A stretch of 45,324 nt of DNA from an uncultured Bacteroidales bacterium (lineage in GTDB: Bacteria > Bacteroidota > Bacteroidia > Bacteroidales > Paludibacteraceae): NCBI GenBank assembly GCA_902784425.1, contig CACZUS010000027.1, positions 27,424 to 72,747 on the forward strand, written 5' to 3'. Below the pieces are notes generated by a model that saw only the letters and a list, made by a program, of their open reading frames with translations, had not been told where the DNA came from and made no database searches. Shown in pieces: positions 14,943 through 30,759 of this stretch; within the stretch, counting starts at the first letter, position 1, and every line of letters begins with the position of its first letter. Position numbers and translations under genes: made by a program.

Positions 14943-16001
14943 TTATTCCATGATCAACATTTGTTGACGAACAGACTCTGAGTGGATAGCCTCGAATACA
15001 ATCTTCATGAATTCACCATCCATAGATAGTTCGATGCCTTGTTGTGCACGCTTGTTGATGATCTCATCATAACGTGTGGTTTGTAGAATAGGCATCTCAT
15101 GCTCTTTTTTGTAGGTTCCGATTTCACGAGAGATACGCATTCTCTTCGCCAATGTCTCAATCAAATTGATGTCGATTTCATCAATCTGCTTTCTGAGCTC
15201 TGTTAGGTTCTCTGTTGTTTGGTTAGTCTCACGAATAACAAGGTTGTTGAGGATAATGTTCAATACCTCAGGTGTTACTTGCTGAGAAGCATCACTCCAA
15301 GCATTATCTGGATCGATGTGTGATTCGATGATCAAACCGTCGAACTGTAGGTCCATTGCTTGCTGACAAAGTGGTGCGATGAGGTCGCGACGACCAGAGA
15401 TATGACTTGGATCGCAGATGATTGGTAACTCAGGAATACGTCTGCGAAGTTCAATAGGAATATGCCATTGAGGAAGGTTGCGGTAGAGTTTCTTATCGTA
15501 TGTGCTGAATCCTCTGTGGATAGCACCAAGACGACGGATACCGGCGTTGTTGAGGCGTTGCAATGCACCAATCCAAAGTTCCAAATCAGGGTTGACGGGG
15601 TTTTTGATCAATACGGGTACGTCTGTGCCTTGTAATGTGTCTGCAATCTCTTGTACGGCAAATGGATCTGCGGTTGTACGTGCACCGATCCATAATAAGT
15701 CGATTCCATATTTTAAAGCCTCTTCTACGTGTTTTGCAGTGGCAACCTCTGTGGCAGTGAGCATGCCAGTCTCTTTCTTGACTGTTTGCATCCAAGGCAA
15801 GGCTTTGATTCCATTTCCTTCGAATCCTCCTGGCTTGGTACGTGGTTTCCATATTCCGGCGCGGAACACCTTCACTCCGTTGCTTGCTAATTGTTTAGCG
15901 GTTGCGATTACTTGTTCTTCTGTTTCTGCACTGCATGGACCTGCAATGACCAATGGTCTTTTTTCTTCTACACCTGTAAGACCTAGTTTTTTTAATTCCA
16001 T
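14943..16001 (-). CDS. Bifunctional DAHP synthase / chorismate mutase
   Basis: This 352-residue cytoplasmic enzyme combines the first step of the shikimate pathway (phosphoenolpyruvate plus erythrose 4-phosphate to DAHP) with conversion of chorismate to prephenate. Residues 1-260 are the DAHP synthase barrel, with VIAGPCSAE, RAGIWKPRTKPGGFEG, LLWIGART, VLIKNPVN, GAIHRGFS and the metal-ligand region ICDPSHISG. This is the shorter type that lacks an N-terminal regulatory extension. Residues from about 267 to the end are an AroQ-type chorismate mutase helix bundle (LTELRKQIDEIDINLIETLAKRM, split here as LTELRKQIDEID and LAKRMRISREIG). It follows pheA by 35 bases and shares its attenuated promoter and terminator. 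The product prephenate feeds directly to PheA. Confidence 0.95.
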   Translation of the reverse strand: MELKKLGLTGVEEKRPLVIAGPCSAETEEQVIATAKQLASNGVKVFRAGIWKPRTKPGGFEGNGIKALPWMQTVKKETGMLTATEVATAKHVEEALKYGIDLLWIGARTTADPFAVQEIADTLQGTDVPVLIKNPVNPDLELWIGALQRLNNAGIRRLGAIHRGFSTYDKKLYRNLPQWHIPIELRRRIPELPIICDPSHISGRRDLIAPLCQQAMDLQFDGLIIESHIDPDNAWSDASQQVTPEVLNIILNNLVIRETNQTTENLTELRKQIDEIDINLIETLAKRMRISREIGTYKKEHEMPILQTTRYDEIINKRAQQGIELSMDGEFMKIVFEAIHSESVRQQMLIME

Positions 16002-16036: not shown

Positions 16037-16879
16037 TTATAAGTTCTGATTTGCCTCTTGGTATTCTCCTAATACTTTCAAGTCCTTTGTCAGAGGTGTG
16101 ATAGCCGACAATGCTTGTGTGTAACGCACATATTGTGTGAAGGAGAGGTTTACGTAGAATTGATATTCCCACTCTCTGCCGATGATAGGGAGAGATTGAA
16201 TTTTAGTGAGGTTGAGTCCGTAGTAGGATAAGATGGACAATATCATAGCCAAACTACCTTGCTCATGAGGGAGCGAGAAGACGAGAGAGGCTTTGTTCGG
16301 ACTCTTTCCTTTGCTTAGCTCATCGGTCAACCATGAATCCGCTACGATTAGGAAGCGAGTGAAGTTGTGTTTGTTGGTTTCAATTCCTTTCTCCAATATT
16401 TCAAGTCCGTAGATCTCGGCTGCCATCTCACCGCAAATGGCTGCTACTCCCATTTTGCCCTCCTCGGCTACTCTTTTGGCACTGGATGCGGTATCGTCAC
16501 TTTCCACAGCTTTGATGTGCTTGTTGCGTTGAAGAAAGTCGCCACATTGCATAAGAGCGATCGGGTGGGAGTGCACCTCATGAATGTCGGATATCTTCTG
16601 TCCGGGGAGAGCTACTAAGTTGTGTTTGATGCGAAGTTTGTATTCTCCTGCGATCTTCAAACCGCTCTCTTTGAGAAGATTGTGATTTTGTAGCAAACTG
16701 CCGGCTATTGTATTCTCTATCGCTACGGCTCCTATGATGGATGAGTCTTTCTTGATGGTGGCGAATACATCGCTAAATGTTTCGCATGGGATAATCTCTA
16801 TCTCTTCACCATTGAAATATTCATGAGCGGCGATGTCGTGGAAACATCCTTTAATTCCTTGTATTGCAACTTTCTTCAT
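16037..16879 (-). CDS. pheA: Prephenate dehydratase
   Basis: PheA converts prephenate to phenylpyruvate, the committed step to phenylalanine, in the cytoplasm. The 280-residue protein is the single-function type. The catalytic domain (about residues 1-185) shows VAIQGIKGCFHDIAA, AIENTIAGSL and the family hallmark KHNFTRFLIV. The C-terminal ACT domain starts near residue 195. In most family members the ACT domain carries GALV and ESRP motifs that form the phenylalanine site; here they read GSLA and QSLP (IQSLPIIGREWEYQFYV). I recall the QSLP form from other Bacteroidales, so it may be a lineage trait. The gene is preceded by two tandem Phe/Tyr attenuators and followed by DAHP synthase/chorismate mutase. 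Confidence 0.95.
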   Translation of the reverse strand: MKKVAIQGIKGCFHDIAAHEYFNGEEIEIIPCETFSDVFATIKKDSSIIGAVAIENTIAGSLLQNHNLLKESGLKIAGEYKLRIKHNLVALPGQKISDIHEVHSHPIALMQCGDFLQRNKHIKAVESDDTASSAKRVAEEGKMGVAAICGEMAAEIYGLEILEKGIETNKHNFTRFLIVADSWLTDELSKGKSPNKASLVFSLPHEQGSLAMILSILSYYGLNLTKIQSLPIIGREWEYQFYVNLSFTQYVRYTQALSAITPLTKDLKVLGEYQEANQNL

Positions 16880-16899
16880 TTTTAAAACATTTTATATAT

Positions 16900-16923
16900 A
16901 AAAAAACCCGCTTTTCGGCGGGT
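16900..16923 (-). terminator. Attenuator terminator 2, upstream of pheA
   Basis: On the minus strand ACCCGC (16923-16918) pairs with GCGGGT (16911-16906) around a six-base loop, followed by a T run. It lies 20 bases before the pheA start codon, so it cannot be a normal end of another gene; it is the second attenuator terminator. Confidence 0.92.
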
Positions 16924-16953
16924 CTTGGTTTATCATACAATCTCCTTCCCGCC

Positions 16954-17016
16954 TTATGAAATAAAGTGGTAAAAGAAGTAAAAAAAGTAACCGTTATGTA
17001 TCGAAATAATTATCAT
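16954..17016 (-). CDS. Phe/Tyr leader peptide 2
   Basis: A 20-codon frame reads MIIISIHNGYFFYFFYHFIS and then TAA. Eight of nine residues in YFFYFFYHF are Phe or Tyr (five Phe, three Tyr), which is far from random and typical of a control-codon leader. The antiterminator arm GGCGGG starts immediately after the stop. The start lies 14 bases beyond the T tract of terminator 1, so this peptide is translated only from transcripts that escape the first terminator. Only the act of translation is expected to matter, not the peptide itself. Confidence 0.88.
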   Translation of the reverse strand: MIIISIHNGYFFYFFYHFIS

Positions 17017-17028
17017 ACTTATTTAAAT

Positions 17029-17056
17029 CAAAAAAGTCTCACATTTCTGCGAGACT
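17029..17056 (-). terminator. Attenuator terminator 1 in the pheA leader
   Basis: On the minus strand AGTCTC (17056-17051) pairs with GAGACT (17040-17035) around a 10-base loop and is followed by a run of six T residues. It separates the two leader peptides. The same AGTCTC arm can pair instead with the upstream antiterminator arm. Confidence 0.9.
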
Positions 17057-17103
17057 CATATCTTAAAAAATTTGTTTCAAATTTGGTAATCAGAATCTCG
17101 CTC

Positions 17104-17160
17104 TTACTGTTTAAAGTAAAAGTAAAAAAAGAAGTAATATGAATAAACTAAATTTTTCAT
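17104..17160 (-). CDS. Phe/Tyr leader peptide 1
   Basis: An 18-codon frame reads MKNLVYSYYFFFYFYFKQ and then TAA. Ten of the eleven residues in YSYYFFFYFYF are Tyr (five) or Phe (five). It starts about 12 bases downstream of the predicted transcription start, so it is the first thing translated from the pheA promoter. Three bases after the TAA begins the antiterminator arm. The mixture of Tyr and Phe codons suggests that scarcity of either charged tRNA would raise expression of the operon. Confidence 0.9.
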   Translation of the reverse strand: MKNLVYSYYFFFYFYFKQ

Positions 17161-17178
17161 TGTTTCTGAATTACTGTG

Positions 17179-17211
17179 CAAAGGTATATATAGTTTTTTA
17201 GAAAATGCAAA
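17179..17211 (-). promoter_or_regulatory. pheA operon promoter
   Basis: On the minus strand TTTG (17211-17208) and TACCTTTG (17186-17179) are separated by 21 bases, a full match to the Bacteroidota sigma-ABfr consensus TTTG-N19-21-TAnnTTTG. The expected start is near 17172, leaving a short untranslated segment before leader peptide 1. Confidence 0.88.
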
Positions 17212-17357: not shown

Positions 17358-18119
17358 ATGAAACATTCATTTCACACAACTGCATTATTATTTAATGATA
17401 CATTGAAAATCTTCTTTCTGATAATTCTTTTTGGCTTTACGTCGTTGGCAAACGCTAATACTATAGATTATATGTATTATATGGCGGGTAATCCTACAAA
17501 AGGAATGAAAACTCTTACTATAGAGAGAGGTAATACTACAGAAATTTATTATTTAAATACTGAGGCTAAGGTTGATTCTGTTCGATTTCGTGGTGGTTGG
17601 AGAGAAGAGTTTATGGCCTTTCAGTATGGGAAAGACACATTAACAATTAACATGTACTCTAACGGCAAATTAGAAGGGAAAATGCTATGGACAAAAGATT
17701 CTGTATGGTCATATGGCTATGAAAAGGATTCTGTCAAAATTATGTCTGCGCAACTTGATGACCATGGGGAAATAAAAAGTCAGTATCAAGACACTTATAA
17801 AAGAATATATGACTCGAAAGGTAATTGTACAAGAGAGGAATACTATGAAAAAGGCGTGAAAAAACAAGTCACTGTTACAAAATACGATGATCGTGGCATT
17901 ATTATGGAAAAACGCGAGTTCGATGCTCAGGGAAAACAGAAATATTACAATAAATATAACTCCAATGGATTGCTGGTTGAATGTGGTGAGGATGGAAAAG
18001 TGTACTTTAGAACGTATAAATACGATGAAAAGGGCAACTGGATTGAGTTTACTGTTGTAGAGAAAAGCAATCCGCAGGCTATTATTTCTACTGTCAAACG
18101 CGTAATTGAATATTATTAA
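17358..18119 (+). CDS. Exported protein with YD-like repeats
   Basis: This 253-residue protein has an N-terminal hydrophobic segment (about residues 17-33, ending SLANANT) that is probably a signal peptide. The second half contains loosely repeated units such as YDSKGNCTREEYY, YDDRGIIMEKREFD, YNSNGLLVE and YDEKGNWIEFTV, which resemble YD/RHS-like or YwqK-like beta repeats that bind sugars or form shells. I cannot assign a function. Codon use looks AT-rich relative to its neighbours and it is followed by a tandem repeat, so recent acquisition is possible but unproven. It has its own promoter, divergent from pheA. Confidence 0.75.
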   Translation: MKHSFHTTALLFNDTLKIFFLIILFGFTSLANANTIDYMYYMAGNPTKGMKTLTIERGNTTEIYYLNTEAKVDSVRFRGGWREEFMAFQYGKDTLTINMYSNGKLEGKMLWTKDSVWSYGYEKDSVKIMSAQLDDHGEIKSQYQDTYKRIYDSKGNCTREEYYEKGVKKQVTVTKYDDRGIIMEKREFDAQGKQKYYNKYNSNGLLVECGEDGKVYFRTYKYDEKGNWIEFTVVEKSNPQAIISTVKRVIEYY

Positions 18120-29042: not shown

Positions 29043-29049
29043 AAAACGC

Positions 29050-29123
29050 CTCTTTAGCTCAGTTGGCCAGAGCACGTGATTTGTAATCTCGGGGTCGTTG
29101 GTTCGAATCCGACAAGAGGCTCG
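29050..29123 (+). tRNA. tRNA-Thr (anticodon TGT)
   Basis: The 74-base cloverleaf has the acceptor arm GCCTCTT with AAGAGGC, the T loop GGTTCGAATCC and the anticodon loop TTTGTAA with TGT. It is the first of four tRNAs before tuf. CCA is not encoded. Confidence 0.96.
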
Positions 29124-29156
29124 AAAGAAGAGAAGATCTTTGATTTTAAAAGTTGG

Positions 29157-29237
29157 GTAGTTACCAGAGTGGCCAAATGGGGCAGACTGTAAATCTGCTG
29201 GCTCTTGCCTTCGGTGGTTCGAATCCATCACTACCCA
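29157..29237 (+). tRNA. tRNA-Tyr (anticodon GTA)
   Basis: The 81-base tRNA has the acceptor arm GGGTAGT with ACTACCC, the anticodon loop CTGTAAA with GTA, and a long variable arm (CTGGCTCTTGCCTTCGG region) typical of class II tRNA-Tyr. Its reader, the Tyr codon, is one of the two control codons in the pheA leader peptides. Confidence 0.96.
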
Positions 29238-29246
29238 CTCTATCAT

Positions 29247-29319
29247 GCGGAAGTAGCTCAGTTGGTAGAGCATCAGCCTTCCAAGCTGAGGGTCGCGGGT
29301 TCGAACCCCGTTTTCCGCT
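29247..29319 (+). tRNA. tRNA-Gly (anticodon TCC)
   Basis: The 73-base cloverleaf has the acceptor arm GCGGAAG with TTTCCGC (one G-U pair), the T loop GGTTCGAACCC and the anticodon loop CTTCCAA with TCC. Confidence 0.96.
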
Positions 29320-29324
29320 CTATT

Positions 29325-29396
<72 letters not shown>

Positions 29397-29444
29397 CATG
29401 TAAATTGAAAAAATATTAATTAATTAAATAAAATATTAGAAATT

Positions 29445-30632
29445 ATGGCAAAAGAACAATTCGACCGTTCCAAACCGCACGTAAATATCGGTACTATTGG
29501 TCACGTAGACCACGGTAAAACTACTTTGACAGCTGCAATCACTACAGTATTGGCAAAGAAAGGTCTTTCTGAACAAAAATCATTCGATCAAATCGATAAC
29601 GCACCAGAAGAGAAAGAGCGTGGTATCACAATCAATACTTCTCACGTAGAGTATCAAACAGCAAATCGTCACTATGCACACGTTGACTGTCCAGGTCACG
29701 CCGACTATGTAAAGAACATGGTAACTGGTGCTGCTCAGATGGATGGTGCAATCATCGTAGTTGCTGCAACTGATGGACCAATGCCTCAAACTCGTGAGCA
29801 CATCCTTTTGGCTCGTCAGGTAAACGTACCACGTTTGGTTGTATTCATGAACAAATGTGATATGGTTGATGATCCTGAGATGTTGGATTTGGTTGAAATG
29901 GAAATGCGCGAATTGTTAGGTTTCTATGAGTTTGACGCTGATAACACTCCATTCATCCGTGGATCTGCTCTAGGTGCATTGAACGGTGAACCTCAATGGG
30001 AAGAGAAAATCATGGAATTGATGGATGCAGTTGATAGCTGGATCGAGCTTCCTAAGCGTGATATTGATAAACCATTCTTGATGCCAGTTGAGGACGTATT
30101 CTCTATCACTGGTCGTGGTACTGTTGCAACAGGACGTATTGAGACTGGTATCATCAAAGTTGGTGATGAGGTTGAAATCATCGGTTTGGGTGCAGAGAAG
30201 ATGAAATCTACTGTAACTGGTGTTGAGATGTTCCGTAAATTGTTGGATCAAGGAGAGGCTGGTGATAACGTAGGTTTGTTGCTTCGTGGTATCGACAAAG
30301 ATCAAATCAAACGTGGTATGGTACTTTGTAAGCCAGGTCAAGTAACTCCTCACACTGAGTTCAAGGCTTCTGTTTATATCTTGAAGAAAGAAGAAGGTGG
30401 ACGTCACACTCCATTCCACAACCACTATCGTCCTCAATTCTACATCCGTACTTTGGATGTAACTGGTGAAATCTCTTTGCCAGAAGGAACTGAAATGGTT
30501 ATGCCAGGTGATAACTTGGAAATCCAAGTAAAATTGATTTACCCAGTAGCTTGCAGCGAAGGTCTTCGTTTCGCTATCCGTGAGGGTGGTAGAACAGTAG
30601 GTTCTGGACAAATCACTAAGATCATTGACTAA
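29445..30632 (+). CDS. tuf: Elongation factor Tu
   Basis: EF-Tu delivers aminoacyl-tRNA to the ribosome as a GTPase. The 395-residue protein has GHVDHGKT (P loop, near residue 19), DCPGHADY near residue 81, and NKCD near residue 136, followed by beta domains 2 and 3. The length is normal. It follows four tRNA genes and is followed by tRNA-Trp, secE and nusG, the order known from many bacteria. Strong codon bias fits very high expression. Confidence 0.99.
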
Positions 30633-30654
30633 TACATTGTATTATTGATATGAT

Positions 30655-30686
30655 GATTCCCTGAGTGTATGCTTGGGGAATCTTTT
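30655..30686 (+). terminator. Hairpin between tuf and tRNA-Trp
   Basis: GATTCCC (30655-30661) pairs with GGGAATC (30676-30682), followed by TTTT. It lies directly before tRNA-Trp. It could be a partial terminator that lowers expression of the genes after tuf, or a processing signal. Confidence 0.65.
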
Positions 30687-30759
30687 ACGGGAGTAGCTCA
30701 GTTGGTAGAGCACTGGTCTCCAAAACCAGGTGTCGGGAGTTCGAGCCTCTCCTTCCGTG
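30687..30759 (+). tRNA. tRNA-Trp (anticodon CCA)
   Basis: The 73-base cloverleaf has the acceptor arm ACGGGAG with CTTCCGT (one G-U pair) and the anticodon stem-loop CTGGT-CTCCAAA-ACCAG with CCA. It sits between tuf and secE. Confidence 0.96.

Follow-up and report, generated by a model that had tools for sequence, protein, structure and literature searches.

Does pheA in an uncultured Bacteroidales bacterium stand behind one attenuator or behind two? The window (the whole 45,324-nt stretch of DNA analyzed here, which comes from a 3.3-Mb assembly of 170 contigs) carries on its minus strand, in this order, a promoter (17211-17179), leader ORF 1, terminator 1, leader ORF 2, terminator 2, and pheA. 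The pheA gene (16037..16879) encodes prephenate dehydratase (Pfam PF00800, E 1.5e-56), and the next gene downstream, 35 bases past pheA, encodes a DAHP synthase-chorismate mutase fusion (14943..16001; PF00793 and PF01817); both enzymes belong to the Phe/Tyr pathway. MAGs of Paludibacteraceae from the omasum of goat and the reticulum of water buffalo have a PheA that is 99% identical. The initial annotation had read the leader as two complete Phe/Tyr attenuators in series, and anatomy, folding, covariation, and relatives all agree with that reading, which is the best supported of those that we weighed. We thus consider it highly probable that the leader holds two classical attenuators of transcription, ribosome-mediated and arranged in series, which respond to Phe-tRNA and Tyr-tRNA and control pheA; the DAHP synthase-chorismate mutase gene is probably under their control as well.

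The first module opens with leader ORF 1 (17104..17160; ATG at 17160, stop TAA 17106-17104), which encodes MKNLVYSYYFFFYFYFKQ, an aromatic ORF conserved in relatives, with 10 aromatic residues among the 11 of YSYYFFFYFYF. Its last codons take part in a protector hairpin (segments 1:2; 17096..17127), where CTTTTACT (17122-17115) pairs with AGTAAGAG (17108-17101) and four outer pairs are added; both the computed fold and the codon choice of relatives favor this hairpin. The antiterminator arm A1 (segment 2; GAGCGAGATTC, 17093..17103) begins with the first or second base past stop 1 and pairs with B1 at -15.7 kcal/mol. Terminator 1 (17030..17057) consists of B1 (GAGTCTCGC, 17057-17049; segment 3), C1 (GTGAGACTT, from 17042; segment 4), and a U-tract (17035-17030), and is identified by folding, pairing energy, and covariation. 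Leader ORF 2 (16954..17016; ATG at 17016, stop TAA 16956-16954) encodes MIIISIHNGYFFYFFYHFIS, where 8 of the 9 residues in YFFYFFYHF are aromatic, and bears a signature common to six families. In its protector hairpin (16949..16969; fold computed on the identical segment of L002), CTTTAT (16966-16961) pairs with ATAAGG (16957-16952), with two further outer pairs, and most other module-2 leaders have CTTTATG/CATAAGG equivalents. Arm A2 (AAGGCGGG, 16948..16955) overlaps stop 2 and pairs with B2 at -14.2 kcal/mol, with weaker covariation than its counterpart. Terminator 2, AGACCCGCC-GAAAA-GCGGGTTTTTTT (16900..16925), has the same three lines of evidence as terminator 1. Direct reading thus bore out the coordinates, the two aromatic peptides, the competing arms, and the placing of antiterminator arms at the leader stops that had been proposed at the outset.

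From this anatomy and its evolution we infer regulation at the tandem leader along the following lines. When Phe and Tyr are plentiful, a ribosome reaching the leader stop would cover segment 2, leaving segments 3:4 to form the terminator. A ribosome stalled in the aromatic run would instead break protector 1:2, so that 2:3 would pair before segment 4 is made and the polymerase would read through. If the leader were not translated at all, 1:2 would form and transcription would end. The scheme assumes that transcription and translation are coupled in Bacteroidales. Read-through into pheA, and into the next gene if both form one operon as we suppose, would require antitermination at both modules, so the two probabilities should multiply; the predicted outcome is a sharper response and transcripts of three lengths.

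Folding reproduced these states in silico. With a ribosome placed at the stop, segments 3:4 paired with a probability of 0.98 in module 1 and 0.87 in module 2. If segment 4 was yet to be made and segment 2 was free, segment 3 paired upstream, chiefly with segment 2 (1.00 and 0.75, respectively). With no ribosome, protector and terminator formed together (terminator 0.93 in module 1 and 0.87 in module 2). The competition between terminator and antiterminator that the initial annotation expected from folding was therefore seen in both modules, along with a protector hairpin that it did not describe; our own first idea, that the modules lack such a hairpin, was ruled out when folding without a ribosome revealed one. 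Once each module is complete and segment 2 is free, the equilibrium favors the antiterminator in module 1 (0.78 versus 0.22 for the terminator) and the terminator in module 2 (0.77 versus 0.09 for the antiterminator). Module 2 would therefore have to act kinetically.

The protector hairpin has left a trace in codon choice. Synonymous randomization of the aromatic codons weakened the protector region from -7.80 to -6.72 across 110 clusters (p 9e-11), and from -8.41 to -7.16 across 14 module-2 clusters (p 1e-4). When the folded stretch omitted the last aromatic codons, no synonymous effect was seen (p 0.84), and arm-2 swaps in that test likewise had no effect (51% ties or wins). The last three-codon aromatic run reads TTT-TAC-TTT in 180 of 258 modules. 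Since each module has a protector between its last aromatic codons and arm A, termination is the predicted outcome for a leader that is not translated.

We then asked how specific the antiterminator pairing is, comparing in 258 modules the energy of arm A with its own B, with the B of other species, and for shuffled A regions. Arm A paired with its own B at a mean of -16.8 kcal/mol, compared to -12.5 when B came from another species and -7.1 when the A region was shuffled, and the own pairing tied or beat 86% of the swaps. The median A:B energy and the median terminator energy were both about -16.8 kcal/mol. The start of arm A lay between -5 and +4 relative to the first base past the stop in 139 of the 258 modules, and nearly all others started farther upstream, within the ORF, which is the Bacteroides layout. 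Within the window, cross-pairing between the modules was weaker than pairing within them (-4.3 and -9.4 kcal/mol). In several relatives, however, A1 can also pair with B2, in L004 (-17.0 kcal/mol) and L099 (-17.3) about as strongly as in their own pairs, and the independence of the modules is therefore not general.

Compensatory changes, counted on hand-registered arms in 11 and 13 rows with 500 shuffles each, were strong for three of the four arm pairs and modest for the fourth. A1:B1 was 97% paired with five of nine pairs changed on both sides, B1:C1 was 100% paired with four of nine, and B2:C2 was 88% paired, again with four of nine; no shuffle in 500 reached the covariation score of any of these. 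For A2:B2 (84.6% paired, 4/9 pairs changed on both sides), 21 of 500 shuffles reached the score, and neither the number of cells paired (76/500) nor that of double-change pairs (127/500) was remarkable. Further pair types were not raised in module 1, where shuffles equaled A1:B1 in 461 and B1:C1 in 124 of 500 cases. All three arms of module 1 (A, B, and C) have changed in concert between L082 and L004. Arm covariation is thus strong in module 1 and weak to modest for the module 2 antiterminator.

Downstream of arm A, many modules have a TG, often TATG, some 7 to 10 nt past the GG of the arm (17093-17080 in the window, and equivalents). The elemental pause signal has the form GG-N8-YG, and a pause-like GG-N8-YG followed arm A in 103 of 211 cases (shuffled mean 36, maximum 53). 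Spacings of 7, 9, and 10 were also raised, and those of 4 and 5 were high as counted without a shuffle comparison.

Could an A+T-rich sequence have produced such a leader by chance, with a terminator that has nothing to do with pheA? When the last 300 nt upstream of pheA were shuffled 20,000 times with dinucleotides preserved, 20 of the shuffles contained any ATG ORF with 8 of 10 aromatics, one contained one module, and none contained two. Seven Phe/Tyr codons in a row are by themselves no rarity: such a run has 10 matches in the genome on both strands, four of which (three of them overlapping) fall in the pheA leader, compared to 13 for a reversed-pattern control. The weight therefore rests on the combination of elements and on the relatives, and here hundreds of pheA leaders conserve the attenuator. 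Nor does terminator 1 mark the end of the upstream neighbor, because that ORF (17358-18119, plus strand) is divergent from the pheA leader. As some distant relatives share the double attenuator, a chance origin is very unlikely, to the point that we regard it as virtually negligible.

Two attenuators might also sit on two transcripts, each behind a promoter of its own, rather than in series on one. We assigned the promoter upstream of leader 1 (17179..17211) by what we take to be the Bacteroidales-type consensus, with TTTG at -33 (17211-17208) and TACCTTTG at -7 (17186-17179), 21 nt apart. Across the tandem loci, 22 of 23 (all but L294) have TANNTTTG 26 to 40 nt upstream of the leader-1 ATG, 19 of these 22 with a TTG in the -33 region. 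Between the two ATGs, TANNTTTG, the single consensus searched, was absent from 20 of 23 tandem loci; the three that have it there (L249, L255, and L262) would suit two promoters, but they lack a TTG in the -33 region. A module can evidently sit at a promoter, as the lone module-2-type leaders of L095 and L102 have TATCTTTG 61 and 84 nt upstream of their ATG. In the window, however, the leader-2 ATG follows terminator 1 after only 13 nt. With the motif upstream of leader 1 and seldom between the leaders, the data support one transcript with two attenuators, and separate promoters appear highly improbable.

To see how widespread the arrangement is, we examined 288 pheA loci, namely the best 80 of 559 confirmed contig stretches together with loci and stretches from further genomes. 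Of 250 genomes at the family level, 139 gave a match, and nearly all of these were read (weak or partial matches in G078, G126, G131, G155, and G173 were left out); at the order level, 153 of 344 genomes had a match, and 26 new loci and 40 stretches were read beyond those already included. The 288 loci reduced to 266 distinct ones, of which 10 had less than 350 nt upstream, leaving 256 usable loci in a nonrandom sample enriched in close kin of the window. Counted by rule, 216 of these have one complete module, 21 have two, and 19 have none, although an aromatic ORF is still present in 11 of the 19 that lack a module by the terminator rule. Two further loci, L241 and L252, which have two aromatic ORFs and one terminator missed by the rule, were added by hand, for a total of 23 tandems in 256 loci. 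A single attenuator is thus the rule upstream of pheA in Bacteroidales, and the tandem recurs in the order and is not peculiar to the window's genome. The expectation that close relatives would have two leaders before pheA held in 11 of the 15 genomes of the window's genus with usable sequence, the other four (L088, L089, L095, and L102) being single; a further genome of the genus, G014, had no pheA match.

These counts bear on whether regulation in the window is the work of a single module next to an ornamental or decaying copy. One module suffices in most relatives (216/256), including the four single members of the genus, and the covariation of A2:B2 is weak. Against this, neither module has lost its aromatic ORF, protector, antiterminator, or terminator across deep divergence, and in L082 and L004, where the leader peptides differ, the two are still complete. 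We therefore judge an idle second copy unlikely and retain two working attenuators in series.

The tandems fall into eight family codes (f1, f15, f60, f68, f78, f88, f96, and f117) plus the named contig L016. The PheA tree requires at least 10 changes between tandem and non-tandem, whether built on 256 rows or on 109 rows that include 18 tandems, in counts that come from one gene and do not separate gain from loss. Second leaders in f1, f60, f68, f78, f88, f96, and L016 share the signature ...FYFM or one of its near variants (L008 has V, the window I); after this comes TCATAAGG(T/C)G(A/G)G, again with slight variation, and L252 (f68) fits least. The basis of this signature is that CTTTATG pairs with CATAAGG as the protector hairpin (14 module-2 clusters, a set that does not include L252). 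In L240 and L255 the same second-module DNA is read in another frame, with an ORF that runs on, which argues that the conserved entity is the RNA. As the signature is common to six families, the second module is probably one old element that was repeatedly lost, and L095 and L102 carry the second-type module alone. The second modules of L294 and L296 lack the shared signature and fold differently, and may be independent gains. Overall we lean, with less assurance than for the tandem itself, toward an old and distinct second pheA attenuator in Bacteroidales, marked by the CTTTATG/CATAAGG protector and stacked so that two ribosomes would read the same amino acids twice for multiplicative control, lost many times and sometimes surviving alone. 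Trp residues number 12 in the 23 second leaders compared to two in the first leaders, and seven of the second-leader residues belong to a single near-identical group, which is slight ground for supposing that the second module might read Trp too.

Is this a known kind of regulator? The leader combines an ORF enriched in codons for the amino acids that the pathway makes, a terminator, a covarying antiterminator (more weakly so in module 2), and a protector that includes the control codons, all as in trp- and phe-type attenuators. The enteric pheL-pheA leader (RF01859) and the trp, his, and thr attenuators have the same codon-rich leader ORF, protector, antiterminator, and terminator, and pheA is the controlled gene both in the enteric case and here. 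The enteric Phe leader is mostly Phe, whereas the present leader has two modules in series with Phe and Tyr about evenly mixed. RF01859 itself scored 20.8 and 17.5 bits at the leader, below its gathering cutoff of 55. No Rfam family matched the leader at gathering level; five tRNAs were the window's only matches at that level, with none to T-box or riboswitch families. Ten Bacteroides pheA loci likewise gave no gathering hit, and Rfam BTnc231, tried as a Bacteroides pheA leader, was discarded at 12.6 bits in the window against a cutoff of 80.4.

Leader-peptide attenuators are thus the known kind, and what appears new is two of them in series for the same amino acids. In the full-text listings and passages searched, which lie mostly outside subscription journals, we met no report of two same-amino-acid attenuators in one leader. 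The closest same-signal case in the passages available is mefAL/msrDL, two leader-peptide attenuators that both sense macrolides and succeed one another toward msrD, mefAL controlling mefA and msrD, and msrDL controlling msrD only (PMC10314930); there mefA lies in between, whereas here the same amino acids would be read in one leader before one gene. The Salmonella mgtCBR leader has tandem attenuators, its mRNA carrying two short ORFs one after the other, but one of these responds to ATP and the other to proline, and the passage at hand implies that they do so without two intrinsic terminators (PMC3641672), in contrast to the pheA tandem, whose modules read the same amino acids and have a terminator each. 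In ermB, two leader peptides, ermBL and ermBL2, also share one leader, which by the paper's title undergoes translational attenuation by erythromycin (PMC8274638), not the transcription termination by amino acid supply proposed here. Closer in lineage, a structured 5′ element with no Rfam hit was described upstream of pheA in Flavobacteriaceae, likewise Bacteroidota, together with clues to leader-peptide attenuation upstream of amino acid operons, in a passage that does not mention a tandem (PMC9723704), and leader-peptide-like sORFs were described in B. thetaiotaomicron 5′ UTRs, as far as the relevant excerpt goes (PMC7366714).

Attenuators for one signal in series offer a way to test whether stacking makes repression multiplicative or the response sharper, and relatives with one module, with two, or with module 2 alone can serve as natural controls. 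The design depends on a ribosome that keeps close to RNA polymerase, which makes transcription-translation coupling directly testable in Bacteroidales, an important gut group.

Elsewhere in the source genome (G000), tyrA (contig 22, L260) is unlinked to pheA, and the plus strand of the stretch fetched around it has no aromatic ORF at a threshold of at least 5 per 10. HisG (PF01634) had no match in this genome, which is 96% complete, and the bacterium may therefore lack histidine synthesis. On contig 46 (L303:1354-1504) lies a possible Trp leader (MERNFFKYWRWQGLRFENRKSDRVFLEANV), apparently a single attenuator with no tandem; its terminator comes just before a long open frame, presumably trpB, that stands upstream of a TrpE-like gene. 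Within the window, the five tRNA genes lie at 29048-30759 on the plus strand, four of them clustered at 29048-29396.
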